A stretch of DNA of 64,000 bases from Anaerotignum faecicola (GTDB taxonomy: Bacteria; Bacillota; Clostridia; Lachnospirales; Anaerotignaceae). Of this stretch, positions 7,594 to 61,228 are shown in pieces (position 1 is the first letter of the stretch; each line of letters starts with the position of its first letter). Location: contig NZ_BHVZ01000001.1 in NCBI RefSeq assembly GCF_003865035.1, positions 992,001 to 1,056,000 on the forward strand, given 5' to 3'. The notes below the pieces were generated by a model. That model worked only from the letters and a program-made list of their open reading frames with translations, had not been told where the DNA came from and made no database searches. A program made the position numbers and the translations under genes.

Positions 7594-7621
7594 AAGGGCG
7601 GAACCGAAAGGTTCCGCCCTT
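7594..7621 (+). terminator. Terminator of the PFOR gene
   Basis: Perfect 12-bp stem AAGGGCGGAACC / GGTTCCGCCCTT with a GAAA loop, followed by a short T-run. A closely related hairpin recurs at 8724-8755. Confidence 0.85.
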
Positions 7622-7704
7622 TTCAGTGTGTCGATAGAGGGCAGCGTTTCCTTTTCGGCAAGTTTTCAAGAAGTCATTACGTTGCGAGTATAGTCGAAGC
7701 GATG

Positions 7705-8658: not shown

Positions 8659-8723
8659 GAATATAGGTAATTTCAAAGATAATTTCAATTTTCACAAACA
8701 TCAATCAGAATATATCTAACAAA

Positions 8724-8755
8724 AGGGCGAAATCTCTCGGTTCCGCCCTTTTTCA
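8724..8755 (+). terminator. Terminator of the AT-rich cassette
   Basis: AAAAGGGCG and CGCCCTTTTT flank an imperfect hairpin. GGTTCCGCCCTTTT in its right arm is identical to the right arm of the PFOR terminator at 7610-7623, so the cassette sits between two related terminators. Confidence 0.75.
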
Positions 8756-9596: not shown

Positions 9597-9664
9597 TTGT
9601 TTTGGGGAAACGGCGATTGGGCACAGGGGAATCACCTCTCGTGTGCAAGAAAAAGCAGCGGCGC

Positions 9665-9875
9665 AAGCGCCGATTGGGCGCAGTCGCGCCAAAAATTCTT
9701 CTTAGACAATATCAGTCATTCGCCAGTTTGGAACTTTCTCGGCGAAACAGAGGATTTCTTCCTTACTTTTTATGCTAAAAAGTAACAAAAACTTGGAACC
9801 CGTTTCGCTATGGGTTCCAAACCTCCGCACCCGAGGAAAGGGCAACAAGGTTTCCCTTTCCAAACCCTTCCCCGC
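9665..9875 (-). repeat. Dispersed structured element, family 1, copy 1
   Basis: The reverse complement of this segment is nearly identical to 60251-60457 and shares its second half with 10541-10737. Read on the minus strand it contains a GGAAAGGG/CCCTTTCC hairpin, a TTGGAACCC/GGGTTCCAA hairpin (plus-strand positions 9793-9820), a T-run, an invariant TTACTTTTTA/TAAAAAGTAA hairpin and a conserved CTCTGTTTCGCCGA block. It begins just downstream of the leftward XRE gene. The rest of the gap 9597-9664 shows short GCGC-rich hairpins only. Confidence 0.8.
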
Positions 9876-9928
9876 AGACCCGAAAGGGTATGGAGAAAAG
9901 CGGCGCAGGTGCGCCTGCAACCTTTCCT

Positions 9929-10225
9929 CTAAAGTTGAAGTGCTTTTATCAAATCCAATATACGATTCTGATTTTTTTCGCTTAATTTCTGAAATTCGTG
10001 TAAAAAACATTCTTCTTTTTTCGATGGATTTTTTCCAACCAATTCATCTAAAGAAATATCCAAAATAATTGCTATTTTTATCAAATCATCAATCGAAGGC
10101 TCATTTCGACCGCTTTCATAGTTCGCAATCGTCATATGTCCGTAATTTAATTTCCTTGCCAATGTAGCCTGTGAATATTTTTTTCTTTTTCGGAATTGCT
10201 TCAAATTTGCCGCAAACTCGGACAT
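9929..10225 (-). CDS. XRE-family transcriptional regulator
   Basis: 98 residues: a Cro/C1-type helix-turn-helix in the N-terminal 65 (LKQFRKRKKYSQATLARKLN, YGHMTIANYESGRNEPSIDD) and a short C-terminal helical tail (FLHEFQKLSEKNQNRILDLI) likely for dimerisation. ATG 10225 is preferred because GAGGTG lies 5 bases upstream; an upstream TTG would give five more residues. Divergent from a second XRE gene, like a phage-type switch, but no phage genes are present. Directly followed by a family 1 repeat. Confidence 0.9.
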   Translation of the reverse strand: MSEFAANLKQFRKRKKYSQATLARKLNYGHMTIANYESGRNEPSIDDLIKIAIILDISLDELVGKNPSKKEECFLHEFQKLSEKNQNRILDLIKALQL

Positions 10226-10259
10226 ATCATCACCTCTCAAAATCCATTTAATAATATTT

Positions 10260-10302
10260 TAGAACAAATTATTCAAAATATCAATAGAACAAATCGTTCA
10301 AT
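10260..10302. promoter_or_regulatory. Tandem operator-like repeats between divergent XRE genes
   Basis: AGAACAAAT(T/C)-N-TTCAA occurs at 10261 and again at 10286, 25 bases apart. The second copy contains the palindrome GAAC-N5-GTTC. Both lie in the 100-base intergenic region, so one or both regulators probably bind here. Confidence 0.55.
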
Positions 10303-10325
10303 CTATAGTAAAAACGGTGATGAAA

Positions 10326-10535
10326 ATGATTTATAAAAGAATCCGTGATTTACGAGAAGATAACGATATGACACAGGCGCAGGTTGGCGAGAAAATCAAT
10401 GTTCCGCAGAGAACCTATGCCTATTATGAAACAGGCGAGCGTATGATTCCGCCCCATGTATTATGGGCGTTGGCGGATTTATATGACGTTTCTATTGATT
10501 ATCTGTTGGGACGAACAGATGATAAAAAACGATGA
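10326..10535 (+). CDS. XRE-family transcriptional regulator (short)
   Basis: 69 residues forming one Cro/C1 helix-turn-helix (IRDLREDNDMTQAQVGEKIN, VPQRTYAYYETGERMIPPHV) ending in the usual DVSIDYLLGRTDDKK. Start chosen at ATG 10326, with GGTGA 5 bases upstream; in-frame starts at 10317 (GTG) and 10320 (ATG) are possible. Divergent from the regulator at 9929-10225 and, like it, followed directly by a family 1 repeat in the same relative orientation. Confidence 0.88.
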   Translation: MIYKRIRDLREDNDMTQAQVGEKINVPQRTYAYYETGERMIPPHVLWALADLYDVSIDYLLGRTDDKKR

Positions 10536-10540
10536 AGTTT

Positions 10541-10737
10541 TGCCGAAAAGGCACTTTATACTGCCCGAAGGGGCTTGTGGGGAGGGGATATCCAAGGGGA
10601 ACCTTGTTCCTCTTGGACCTCCTGTGGGGGTCCGGGACCCATTGAGGAGGGGTCCCGGGTTTTTGTTACTTTTTAGCATAAAAAGTAAGGAAGGAATCCT
10701 CTGTTTCGCCGAAAAGGTTCTAAACGGGCGAATTTCT
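10541..10737 (+). repeat. Dispersed structured element, family 1, copy 2
   Basis: Starts with the block GGCACTTTATACTGCCCGAA shared with copy 3, then three hairpins whose sequences differ from copies 1 and 3 but whose pairing is kept: CCAAGGGGAA/TTCCTCTTGG (10592-10616), GGACCTCC/GGGGGTCC (10615-10633) and CCGGGACCC/GGGTCCCGG (10632-10658). Then GTTTTTGTTAC, the invariant A/T hairpin and the CTCTGTTTCGCCGA block. Together with copy 1 it brackets the XRE pair as an inverted repeat. Confidence 0.8.
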
Positions 10738-10777
10738 TATCTTCACCAAGCCATATTTTTTGCGCAAATGCGCTTTC

Positions 10778-58323: not shown

Positions 58324-60024
58324 TCACATTTGTTCGGGTGCTTCGATACCTAAGAGTGCCAGACCCTTTTTCAGCACTGTTTTTACAGAGAAAACAACCG
58401 CCAGACGCGCCTGTCTTACCTCAGGTTCACTGCTGAGAATCGGGTTATCGTGATAAAATTTATTGAACGCCTGTGCAATCGCAACCAAATGTCTGGTAAC
58501 AACAGAGGGCTCCAGCTTTGCCGCCGCATCCTTAATTTTATCAGGGAATGCCTCCAGCAGCTTGCAGACATCCAAAGATGCCTCGTCAGAAAGTGCCTCA
58601 AAATGGATATCACTGAAATCCGTTTCACCTGCACGCTTCAGAATGGAGCAGGCACGCGCATGCGTATACTGCACATAGGGGCCTGTTTCACCATCGAAAT
58701 TTAACATCCTTTCCCAGCTGAACACAACATCCTTGATTCTTGTGTTATACAGGTCATTGAAAATGACCGCGCCAATGCCGACTTGCTTCGCGATTTCCTC
58801 TTTATTTTCCAGATTGGGATTCTTTTCCTCAATAATACGCTTTGTTTCCGCGCACGCCTGATTTAACAAATCCTCCATCAGCACAACATGCCCATGACGG
58901 GTAGAAAGCTTCCCACTATCCAGAGAAACCAGACCGAAAGGCACATGAATCAAATCCTTGTACCAATCATAGCCCATTTTATGAATGACCTCAAACCACT
59001 GTGCGAAATGCAGGTTTTGGTCAAGCGCAGTCAGATAAATGCACTTGTCAAAATTGTAGGTTTTCTTGCGGTAAAGCGCCGCAGTAATATCTCTGGTTGC
59101 ATAAAGCGTGCCGCCATCCTTACGGATAATCAGGCAGGGAGGCATATTTTTATCCTCTAAATCCACAATCATCGCGCCTTCGGATTCCTTGAGCAGGTTT
59201 TTGTCCTTTAATTCCTGCACAACCGCATCCATCTTGTCATTATAGAAGGACTCTCCTGTGTACGCATCAAATTTCACACCAAGCATTTCATATACACGCT
59301 CGAATTCCTTGATAGAAATATCATAGAACCATTTCCACAGCGTCAATGCTTCTTCATCGCCCTCCTGCATTTTTACAAACCACAGGCGCGCTTCATCGTC
59401 CATTTTCAGCTCGGGATGCTTTTCTGCTTCATCATGGAACTTTACATAAATCCGCATCAGCTCCTGAATCCCGTCCTTCTCTACTGCTTCCTTGCTGCCC
59501 CATTTTTTATACGCAACAATCAGCTTGCCGAACTGTGTCCCCCAGTCCCCCAGATGGTTGATGCCCTCGCAATGGTAGCCCAGCTCCTCGTGAATTTTAT
59601 AAATCGCGTTGCCGATTACGGTAGAACGCAGATGCCCAACATGGAAGGGCTTTGCAATATTGGGAGAGGAATAGTCGATCACAACGGTTTTGCCTGCACC
59701 CATATCGCTCTTGCCATAGCTTTCCTTCTGCTCCAGAACGGCAGAAAGCACCTGCTCCGCGTATACACTCTTGTCCACAAAAAAGTTGATATATGCACCG
59801 ACCACCTGCATCCTTGCGATAAACGCAGGCTTTTCGATTTTTTCGATTAACTCCGCAGCAATCATCGGGGGTGCCTTGCGGAATACCTTCGCCAAACGAA
59901 AACAGGGATACGCAAAATCGCCCATTTCCTTTTTGGCAGGAATTTCCACTGCCGCCGCCGCATCCTCAACGGAAATTTCCGCTGCCGCCGCCAAAAGTTT
60001 TGCAATTTCTATTTTAAAATCCAT
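58324..60024 (-). CDS. argS: Arginyl-tRNA synthetase
   Basis: Charges tRNA-Arg. 566 residues: N-terminal Add-1 domain (tRNA D-loop recognition), class I Rossmann core with the HIGH motif as HVGHLRST near 128, EGINHLGDWGTQFGKLI, the KMSKS region degenerated to GKLSTRHGHVV, and a C-terminal helical anticodon domain (DALR type). ATG 60024 with GGAGGTAT upstream. The gap 60025-60212 contains only a short GC-rich palindrome (GCAGGTGTGCCTGC) before the repeat element. Confidence 0.97.
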   Translation of the reverse strand: MDFKIEIAKLLAAAAEISVEDAAAAVEIPAKKEMGDFAYPCFRLAKVFRKAPPMIAAELIEKIEKPAFIARMQVVGAYINFFVDKSVYAEQVLSAVLEQKESYGKSDMGAGKTVVIDYSSPNIAKPFHVGHLRSTVIGNAIYKIHEELGYHCEGINHLGDWGTQFGKLIVAYKKWGSKEAVEKDGIQELMRIYVKFHDEAEKHPELKMDDEARLWFVKMQEGDEEALTLWKWFYDISIKEFERVYEMLGVKFDAYTGESFYNDKMDAVVQELKDKNLLKESEGAMIVDLEDKNMPPCLIIRKDGGTLYATRDITAALYRKKTYNFDKCIYLTALDQNLHFAQWFEVIHKMGYDWYKDLIHVPFGLVSLDSGKLSTRHGHVVLMEDLLNQACAETKRIIEEKNPNLENKEEIAKQVGIGAVIFNDLYNTRIKDVVFSWERMLNFDGETGPYVQYTHARACSILKRAGETDFSDIHFEALSDEASLDVCKLLEAFPDKIKDAAAKLEPSVVTRHLVAIAQAFNKFYHDNPILSSEPEVRQARLAVVFSVKTVLKKGLALLGIEAPEQM

Positions 60025-60212
60025 AAATTGATACCTCCAAAAACCCTGTAAAAAAGGGACATACTTCTATTTACTATAGCATGAAAAAAGGGGAAAAACA
60101 AGGGTTTTAGGGCGAAAAGCGGCGCAGGTGTGCCTGCAAACTTTTGTGCAACAGAATGAAAGCTTTCAGAAAAATTCAAAACAGCCTACCGGAAGGATAT
60201 GACAGCAAGCCA

Positions 60213-60457
60213 TGCCGGAAAGGCACTTTATACTGCCCGAAGGGGCTTGAAGGGAAGGGTTTGGAAAGGGAAACCGTGTTGCCCTTTCCTCGGTTGCGGA
60301 GGTTTGGAACCCATTGCGAAACGGGTTCCAAGTTTTTGTTACTTTTTAGCATAAAAAGTAAGGGAGAACGCCTCTGTTTCGCCGAAAAAGTTCCAAACGG
60401 GCGAACTTCTAATGTTGTCAAAGAAACTTCCTTGACGCGACCGCGCCCAACCAGCCG
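60213..60457 (+). repeat. Dispersed structured element, family 1, copy 3
   Basis: The most complete copy: shared 5' block GGCACTTTATACTGCCCGAA, hairpin GGAAAGGG/CCCTTTCC (60263-60289), CCTC/GAGG (60288-60302), TTGGAACCC/GGGTTCCAA (60304-60331), a T5 run, invariant hairpin TTACTTTTTA/TAAAAAGTAA (60339-60361), CTCTGTTTCGCCGAAAA and a 3' part shared with copy 1 only. It is antisense to the flanking argS and GntR genes. Confidence 0.8.
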
Positions 60458-60466
60458 CTATTCCAC

Positions 60467-60493
60467 AAAAAAAGACCCTTTTCGGGTCTTTTT
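60467..60493 (-). terminator. Terminator of the GntR gene
   Basis: AAAAAAGACCC / GGGTCTTTTT with a short loop, directly beyond the stop at 60497; T-rich on the minus strand. Confidence 0.8.
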
Positions 60494-60496
60494 CCA

Positions 60497-61228
60497 TCAA
60501 CCATACTTCACCGTCAGGTTCACATAAGAAATATGCTCCCGCATGGCAGTATACGCCGTCTGATAATCTCCGCCCTTAATCGCTTCGATAATCTTTCCAT
60601 GCAGCTCAATCGTCACATCAATGACTCTGGGGTTCTGCGTCAGCGATTCACGCATTGCCAGACGAATCCCGTTTTCAAAGGAATCCTTCGATGCAAGCAT
60701 CGTGCTCATCAAGAGCTTATTATGCGTTGCCACCGCCACCTGCATGTGAAACATAGAGTCATAATCCACGAACTGATTCACGTCATGGCGAAATTCCTTC
60801 ATTTTTTCATAATAATACTCCAGCTGGGCAATGTCATCCTTCGTTGCGCGCTTCGCGGCATAGCTCGCCGTTTCTCCCTCTAGCATATAGCGAAATTCCA
60901 GCAGGTCATTCAGGTCAGAATTTTCAACCGTAATGCTGAAAGGCGCAATATTTACGATATTATCAATTTCATTTACAAACGTGCCTGCCTTCGAACGGCG
61001 AATAAAGCCAAACACCGCCAGTGCCGTATATGCCTCGCGCAGCGTACTTCTGCCGATGCCAAGCTGCTCGCTCACCACATTTTCATTCGGCATCATATAG
61101 CCTGCCGGCAGCTGTCCGTTTGTAATCAGCTCCTTAAAACGCTGAAATAAATTCTGGGAGATATTATTTTTTCCCAAATCTTTTTTCAGATATGCGGCAT
61201 TTTCTGCTAAATAGTCTCTTTCTTCCAT
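60497..61228 (-). CDS. GntR-family (FadR subfamily) transcriptional regulator
   Basis: 243 residues. N-terminal winged helix: LFQRFKELITNGQLPAGYMM, PNENVVSEQLGIGRSTLREA, LAVFGFIRRSKAGTFV. C-terminal FCD ligand domain, all helical, with the metal-binding pattern Asp in VDYDSMFHMQVAVATHN and later His in ELHGKIIEAI and MREHISYVN. FadR-type regulators usually control sugar-acid or carboxylate catabolism; no such genes are adjacent, so targets are unknown. ATG 61228 has only a weak upstream site. A palindrome on its own -10 suggests autoregulation. Confidence 0.92.
   Translation of the reverse strand: MEERDYLAENAAYLKKDLGKNNISQNLFQRFKELITNGQLPAGYMMPNENVVSEQLGIGRSTLREAYTALAVFGFIRRSKAGTFVNEIDNIVNIAPFSITVENSDLNDLLEFRYMLEGETASYAAKRATKDDIAQLEYYYEKMKEFRHDVNQFVDYDSMFHMQVAVATHNKLLMSTMLASKDSFENGIRLAMRESLTQNPRVIDVTIELHGKIIEAIKGGDYQTAYTAMREHISYVNLTVKYG

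Follow-up and report, generated by a model that had tools for sequence, protein, structure and literature searches.

A probable non-autonomous interspersed hairpin repeat in the chromosome of gut Anaerotignum

A 64,000-nucleotide stretch of Anaerotignum faecicola DNA (the window, by which we mean the whole of the sequence analysed) holds three related sequences whose stems change in sequence while keeping their pairing. This raises the question of what is being maintained at these places: a structured RNA, or a mobile element that is not autonomous and is under selection for its RNA or its hairpin DNA, these being the two readings offered by a preliminary description of the locus. The three copies reported there are real. 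Comparison by blastn within the window aligns them at 75-87% over 204-234 nt (copies 1 and 3, 87% over 213 nt, E 9e-68; copies 2 and 3, 76% over 234 nt, E 3-4e-50; copies 1 and 2, 75% over 204 nt, E 5-7e-40). The covariance model that had been proposed as a check was built from four DNA copies (copies 1-4) and finds the same three in the window at 164-180 bits, the next match, at 16.5 bits, being the reverse strand of hairpin 3 of copy 3. Copy 1, a whole element from left-end hairpin to right-end hairpins, occupies 9656-9919 on the minus strand (model match 9719-9870, 179.4 bits). Copy 2, of the type called IV below, lies at 10541-10773 on the plus strand (10582-10732, 163.9 bits), and copy 3 at 60213-60457, also on the plus strand (60254-60405, 179.9 bits). 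A solitary left-end-hairpin module, 89% like that of copy 1 over 37 nt, is found upstream of copy 3 in the opposite orientation (60108-60144, minus strand).

The fourth copy stands at the end of MT836496.1 (L002), a scaffold from human faeces, and is 91% like copy 3 over 171 nt; it is the only match among phage records. This scaffold was deposited as an unverified 'Bacteriophage sp.' sequence. By eye, the 5.2 kb fetched encode LytTR-like regulator, XRE-type and ABC-like proteins, and look like a bacterial chromosome, not a virus. The element is known as DNA from these four copies only. Three DNA copies in 64 kb and one elsewhere, together with the read-through matches described below, agree with what defines a small interspersed repeat, namely a short non-coding sequence in many dispersed copies. 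Pattern scans and a profile scan of viral contigs yielded no copy (32 stretches fitted the pattern in the profile scan and none was confirmed), and plasmids gave no match at E 1e-5 (DNA) or 0.01 (protein), a match of ~30 nt at E 0.9 being discarded. One pattern scan of genome contigs, a weak negative in that its pattern would also miss copy 4, matched a single Bacteroidales MAG (L001). We set this down to chance: the covariance model is silent there and the genome has no match to the copy 2 core.

The unit is longer than first given, a chain of hairpins of ~220-270 nt in which four paired helices were counted. In copy 1, read along the plus strand of the element (minus strand of the window), it begins with the left-end hairpin GGCGC-ACCT-GCGCC (9902-9915, read from the sequence and also matched in the terminator-like scan), followed by a spacer, CCC-TTTC-GGG, hairpin 1 (GGAAAGGG/CCCTTTCC; 9835-9861, from the fold and the pair count) and hairpin 3 (TTGGAACCC/GGGTTCCAA; 9793-9820, from the fold, pair count and terminator check) with its T-run. 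After these come an A/T palindrome, TTACTTTTTA-GCA-TAAAAAGTAA (9763-9785, from the alignment and pair count), hairpin C (TTCGCC/GGCGAA; 9720-9746, from the pair count) and a tail, and the unit closes at 9659-9690 with two right-end hairpins and a T-run. These last hairpins, GGCGC-GACT-GCGCC (9677-9690) and CGGCGC-TT-GCGCCG (9659-9672), were read from the sequence, the second being also in the terminator-like scan. Both ends of copy 1 are GGCGC..GCGCC hairpins and each is its own palindrome, from which a separate terminal inverted repeat is indistinguishable. At the start of copies 2 and 3 stands GCC-GAAAA-GGC (or GCC-GGAAA-GGC); a spacer like that of copy 1 and GCCC-GAAG-GGGC come next, an arrangement that by eye is the layout of copy 1 in other letters. 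In copy 2 (plus strand) hairpin 1 lies at 10591-10617, hairpin 3 at 10632-10658 with the T-run after it, the A/T palindrome at 10666-10688, hairpin C at 10705-10732 and a right-end hairpin, GCGC-AAAT-GCGC, read from the sequence, at 10762-10773. The corresponding parts of copy 3 (plus strand) are hairpin 1 at 60263-60289, hairpin 3 followed by its T-run at 60304-60331, the palindrome at 60339-60361 and hairpin C at 60378-60405. In both copies the pair count supports the four helices, the alignment also supports the palindrome, and hairpin 3 was also seen in the terminator check.

Two features of the preliminary description fared less well. Its second hairpin amounts to ~4 bp in type I copies (by eye) and is missing from the minimum-energy fold of all four copies as drawn. 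The near-invariance it saw downstream of the stems holds for the T-run and for the TTACTTTTTA/TAAAAAGTAA palindrome, neither of which differs among the four DNA copies, and fails for CTCTGTTTCGCCGA, which copy 4 carries as CCTTGTTTTGCCGT. An unvarying A/T palindrome suggests recognition by sequence and is uninformative on pairing. The motif TTTTTGTTACTTTTT-n-AAAAAGTAA also occurs in three otherwise unrelated viral contigs (L003 2307-2338, L004 1691-1720 and L005 9881-9910), which have just the A/T hairpin in common with the element and no full copy; the hairpin may be a wider motif.

Pairing was counted on a four-copy alignment (A2) with 33 pairs in four helices. Our results show that all 132 pair cells (33 pairs in four copies) are standard, whereas sliding the partner by one column lowers this to 64-66%. 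Six pairs carry double-sided compensations, against a shuffle mean of 1.5, and none of 500 shuffles reaches six; the only one-sided changes, two in number, both give G-U on the plus strand. Hairpin 3 is as the preliminary description wrote it, TTGGAACCC/GGGTTCCAA in copies 1 and 3 (and also in copy 4) and CCGGGACCC/GGGTCCCGG in copy 2, with three double-sided changes. Hairpin 1 likewise changes sequence with its pairing kept, through three double-sided changes (G-C to T-A, G-C to C-G and A-T to C-G) and one of G-C to G-U that set copy 2 apart from copies 1, 3 and 4. Since all six double-sided changes separate copy 2 from copies 1, 3 and 4, few independent events lie behind the covariation seen in DNA. 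The sequence is highly base-paired by folding as well, with z-scores of -3.1 to -5.6 over both strands. In each of the four copies the plus strand has the lower fold energy (-42.5 to -57.7 kcal/mol, against -37.0 to -46.6 for the minus strand), but the z-scores are stronger for the minus strand (-4.7 to -5.6, against -3.1 to -4.3), so that a strand preference is no more than suggested. In copies 1 and 3 the left arm of hairpin 3 and the loop of hairpin C are, by eye, complementary and would allow a pseudoknot, but the complementarity is absent from copy 2 and the idea was abandoned for that reason.

A further source of copies comes from an accident of reading frame: one plus-strand frame is open through the core, and gene callers predict 'proteins' there. 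A protein search with that frame gave 162 matches, of which the 120 listed are 70-142 aa long, and a second one with a longer carrier as query gave again 162, the 120 listed being 143-237 aa. The core is present in 238 of the 240 distinct sequences among the matches listed (P0208 and P0216 are without the strict core), where 240 listed records (P0121-P0360) do not mean 240 separate loci. A lack of further copies had been named beforehand as grounds for abandoning the element; copies beyond the window do exist, seen as predicted protein. The hosts named among the listed records are Anaerotignum faecicola (P0186, P0212) and Clostridium sp. (P0195). The arms of hairpin 3 fall mainly into four types, RRFGTH..TGSKF (I), RGFGTHYETGPEF (II), RGSGTHYETGPGF (III) and GVRDPLRRGPGF (IV, like copy 2). 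In types I-III a single base pair can be read from both arms; of 214 in-frame units, 213 have T-A or C-G there and P0204 is the exception, against a shuffle mean of 185 and with none of 10,000 shuffles reaching the observed count. A unit was counted if it kept the frame and showed F or S at -10 together with K, E or G at -1, which leaves aside odd units and those of the frame-shifted type IV; the 214 units collapse to 24 distinct 14-mers, so here again few independent events lie behind the pairing. Selection on pairing is supported by the DNA copies and, at one base pair, by the read-through records.

The same records show that the number of units varies. Two cores are present in 27 of the 240 listed records, spaced in 22 of them by 73 codons (219 nt), and adjoining units in the tandem records seem to share a hairpin that closes one unit at its right end and opens the next (TGCGCAAATGCGCTT, translated as CANAL, with the nucleotides deduced from copy 2). 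One 3' flank (LSAFSANPPTAPS) ends 47 listed records, 34 with one core and 13 with two. A shared type-IV stretch opens 21 of these, 9 of them with one core and 12 with two. The counts cover the cores within the ORF, the 5' flank lying beyond it in both forms. The one-core P0221 occurs in 19 contigs (longest 230,007 bp) and the two-core P0253 in 26 (longest 248,644 bp). As both one-core (P0221, P0220) and two-core (P0253, P0252) forms are found in contigs longer than 200 kb, they are no artefact of short contigs.

Neighbouring sequences bear on whether the unit inserts. The copy 2 site is occupied in four other listed records, one of them in an 88 kb contig, and the left flank of copy 3 is present in 11, which indicates insertions common to several strains. 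Among the listed records there are 39 left-context strings, not all of them separate loci and some perhaps chimeric. In P0176 (5 contigs, longest 3,372 bp) the right end of the element continues into the C-terminal ~49 residues of a large terminase (match to phrog_2699 with E 9.5e-9, over positions 250-298 of 315); this ORF begins inside the element, its left side is outside the ORF, and a chimeric assembly is possible. No other believable fused domain was found in 121 + 120 members scanned, where weak unrelated matches at E 0.005 to 0.085 (for example IRK_C, 4 + 4 members) were taken as chance. The 5' flank of copy 1 appears in 42 listed records with 26 distinct tail strings, some nearly alike. 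We do not accept this mixing of flanks as proof of rearrangement, since the contigs are mostly short (37 of the 42 records in contigs below 2 kb, the other five in contigs of 3.9-11.7 kb), as chimeric assembly would give.

The placement of the copies relative to genes was then compared with the geometry of hairpin 3. In all four copies this is a G+C-rich stem of -13.9 to -20.0 kcal/mol (the lowest value in copy 2) followed immediately by a T-run with 7 T in 8 nt, as in an intrinsic terminator; its loop exceeds the limit of 8 allowed in the terminator-like scan, where it is consequently unlisted. The first hairpin of copy 1 lies 13 nt behind the stop codon of an HTH gene (9929-10240) and that of copy 2 lies 6 nt behind the stop codon of another (10326-10535), both in the sense direction, and both copies lie between convergent genes. 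The two small divergent HTH_3 genes (9929-10535) have copy 1 on one side and copy 2 on the other, both facing outward. No gene in the sense direction precedes copy 3 or copy 4. Copy 3 is located between a GntR-family gene (60497-61228, minus strand) and argS (58324-60024, minus strand). The GntR gene has immediately behind it a separate hairpin with T-runs (AAAAAAAGACCC..GGGTCTTTTT; 60469-60493) and so probably does not depend on copy 3 as its terminator. Elsewhere in the window a pair of similar hairpins, 80% alike (AAGGGCGGAACC..GGTTCCGCCCTTTT; 7594-7623 and 8723-8752), are probably terminators. By their Pfam domains, from which the gene names given here are read, the 37 window ORFs scanned have the look of an ordinary chromosome, with aminoacyl-tRNA synthetases, PFOR, an AcrB-type pump, SpoIIP, proC and argS, and five without a family. 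Among the listed relatives of the proC protein, the few that carry a name belong to Anaerotignum sp. (P0064, P0090, P0111) and Bacillota (P0038). None of the 37 is a transposase by Pfam in this 64-kb window, and neither an empty site nor a target duplication was seen in the window data.

We consider it probable that these sequences are a small chromosomal non-autonomous interspersed hairpin repeat of gut Anaerotignum (Clostridia, Lachnospirales), terminator-like when read along its plus strand. Its arrangement suggests that it is probably mobile. The unit would be bounded by short hairpins (GGCGC..GCGCC in copy 1) that hold the hairpin chain between them, and its copies may have been spread by a trans-acting enzyme encoded elsewhere, and also through exchange between copies, by recombination or gene conversion. 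On transcription in the plus orientation, hairpin 3 and TTTTTGTTACTTTTT would form a predicted intrinsic terminator. We propose that this would be why an insertion close behind a stop codon is tolerated and persists, the element being retained where it would serve as one or where it would be harmless as one, and that pairing is kept because the folded single strand matters, as RNA for termination and/or as single-stranded DNA for movement. Of the two readings offered at the outset, the selected pairing they share has stood (six compensations, 132 of 132 cells and 213 of 214 record units), and the mobile repeat is favoured over a dedicated RNA gene because of the dispersal, the tandem copies and the one record joined to a phage terminase.

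Other explanations account for parts of these observations. On one of these, the sequence is no more than a transcription terminator that has been duplicated, its copies arising through gene conversion, segmental duplication and slippage in tandem arrays and never by transposition; the terminator geometry of all four copies, the two copies directly behind stop codons, and the tandem and modular variation at one flank would then be expected. Hairpin modules at both ends, the left-context strings (with the reservations given for them) and the terminase junction of P0176 point instead to insertion, and we hold this account to be rather unlikely. Movement as single-stranded DNA, in the manner of an IS200/IS605-REP-type element whose terminal hairpins are recognised by a Y1 (HUH) transposase, agrees with the hairpins at both ends, with the fact that both one-sided changes are G-U on the plus strand, and with passages of PMC6006769 that name Clostridia among the groups rich in IS200-type TnpA. 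It is nevertheless unlikely, given that the window ORFs scanned include no transposase, that the unit is far above the REP length of 21-65 nt stated in that source, and that no GTAG, GTGG or CGTC tag is conserved over whole elements (plus strand, GTAG 0/4, GTGG 2/4, CGTC 1/4; minus strand, GTAG 0/4, GTGG 1/4, CGTC 1/4). Membership of the REPs proper, with one hairpin in 20-65 nt, was ruled out on tag and length, the unit having four helices in ~220-270 nt.

The compensatory changes would also suit regulation by RNA, whether as a discrete sRNA or in cis as a leader or riboswitch, and a RybB-like match covers hairpin 3, weakly (E 1.6) and probably by chance. The neighbour genes differ at all four copies, copies sit behind genes or point against their neighbours, some are in tandem, and no Rfam family matches at its gathering score in the window (sub-threshold E 1.6, 2.6 and 4.9), on which ground a known RNA family was rejected; a regulatory RNA is therefore very unlikely. 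We give hardly any credence to a decayed or in-frame inserted protein-coding sequence in the style of the Rickettsia palindromic elements. In each of the four DNA copies one plus and one minus frame cross the ~162-nt core without a stop, and the listed predicted ORFs read through it, but a pair of open frames is unremarkable for such a composition (P 0.18-0.33, dinucleotide shuffles), and the records are open because the query was that very frame. Differences by codon position (9/3/2, 6/6/7 and 5/8/7) show no third-position excess, and the terminase is the sole believable fused family in 241 scanned members, so that neither a conserved peptide nor repeated in-frame insertion is apparent. The absent third-position excess and the unexceptional frames led us to reject a protein-coding remnant, and with it the concern, raised in the preliminary description, that the copies are decayed pieces of a gene. 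A bolder form of the repeat reading would make it a distinct class of chromosomal mobile hairpin array, in which units share terminal hairpins so that arrays grow end to end, the folded plus strand moves, a dedicated protein has its site at the unvarying A/T palindrome, and the re-joining of gene flanks in gut populations is a true effect of recombination among copies and not an assembly artefact; this we think quite improbable.

A non-autonomous interspersed repeat, the reading we prefer, has known counterparts, to which it is likened here by general layout as they are described in the parts of the sources cited. The closest in kind appear to be BOX and SPRITE of Streptococcus pneumoniae. BOX has boxA and boxC, of some 50 nt each, on either side of a boxB module repeated in tandem a variable number of times, according to the section of PMC3049150 that treats it, and is likewise a modular small interspersed hairpin repeat of a Firmicute chromosome with a tandem module; the Anaerotignum repeat, unlike BOX, which repeats boxB, duplicates its whole ~219-nt unit, bounded by short G+C-rich hairpins. 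SPRITE, in the same section, has a long stem and then a U-rich tract and is enriched near the 3' ends of convergent genes. It thereby resembles the terminator-like stem and U-rich tract found here, with copies 1 and 2 likewise near convergent 3' ends, but in the longer Anaerotignum unit the terminator-like hairpin is one of several and the A/T palindrome comes after it. REPs, of 20-65 nt with a GTAG/GTGG or CGTC tag, and BIMEs, with their RAYT transposases, are intergenic hairpins in high copy, single or clustered, in the passages available from PMC6006769 and PMC3733652; the present unit shares this and differs in being longer and without a conserved GTAG/GTGG/CGTC tag. The Rickettsia palindromic elements, which in the text excerpted from PMC10969869 code for a conserved peptide and are often found as in-frame insertions, are comparable as a ~150 bp palindromic repeat with an open frame, whereas the Anaerotignum repeat has no sign of frame selection and a believable gene fusion in one of 241 members. 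Intrinsic terminators and hairpin clusters, as outlined in portions of PMC8040213 and PMC8355165, share the hairpin and T-run behind stop codons, but the Anaerotignum sequence is repeated, modular and tandem-forming.

No earlier description of an intergenic or palindromic repeat in Anaerotignum was found in the open-licence literature, and nothing relevant under non-coding RNA either. This is a new repeat family, real, structurally selected and repeated, of a general kind already known. It adds a hairpin repeat family to a genus of the human gut, where it may set where transcripts end and may break or mis-join short-read assemblies. Read-through of the repeat lies behind many public database entries for 'hypothetical proteins', which are probably spurious. 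As its stems change with pairing kept and its number of units varies before one flank, it would make a good system in which to ask whether it is RNA or single-stranded DNA that is under selection in bacterial repeats.
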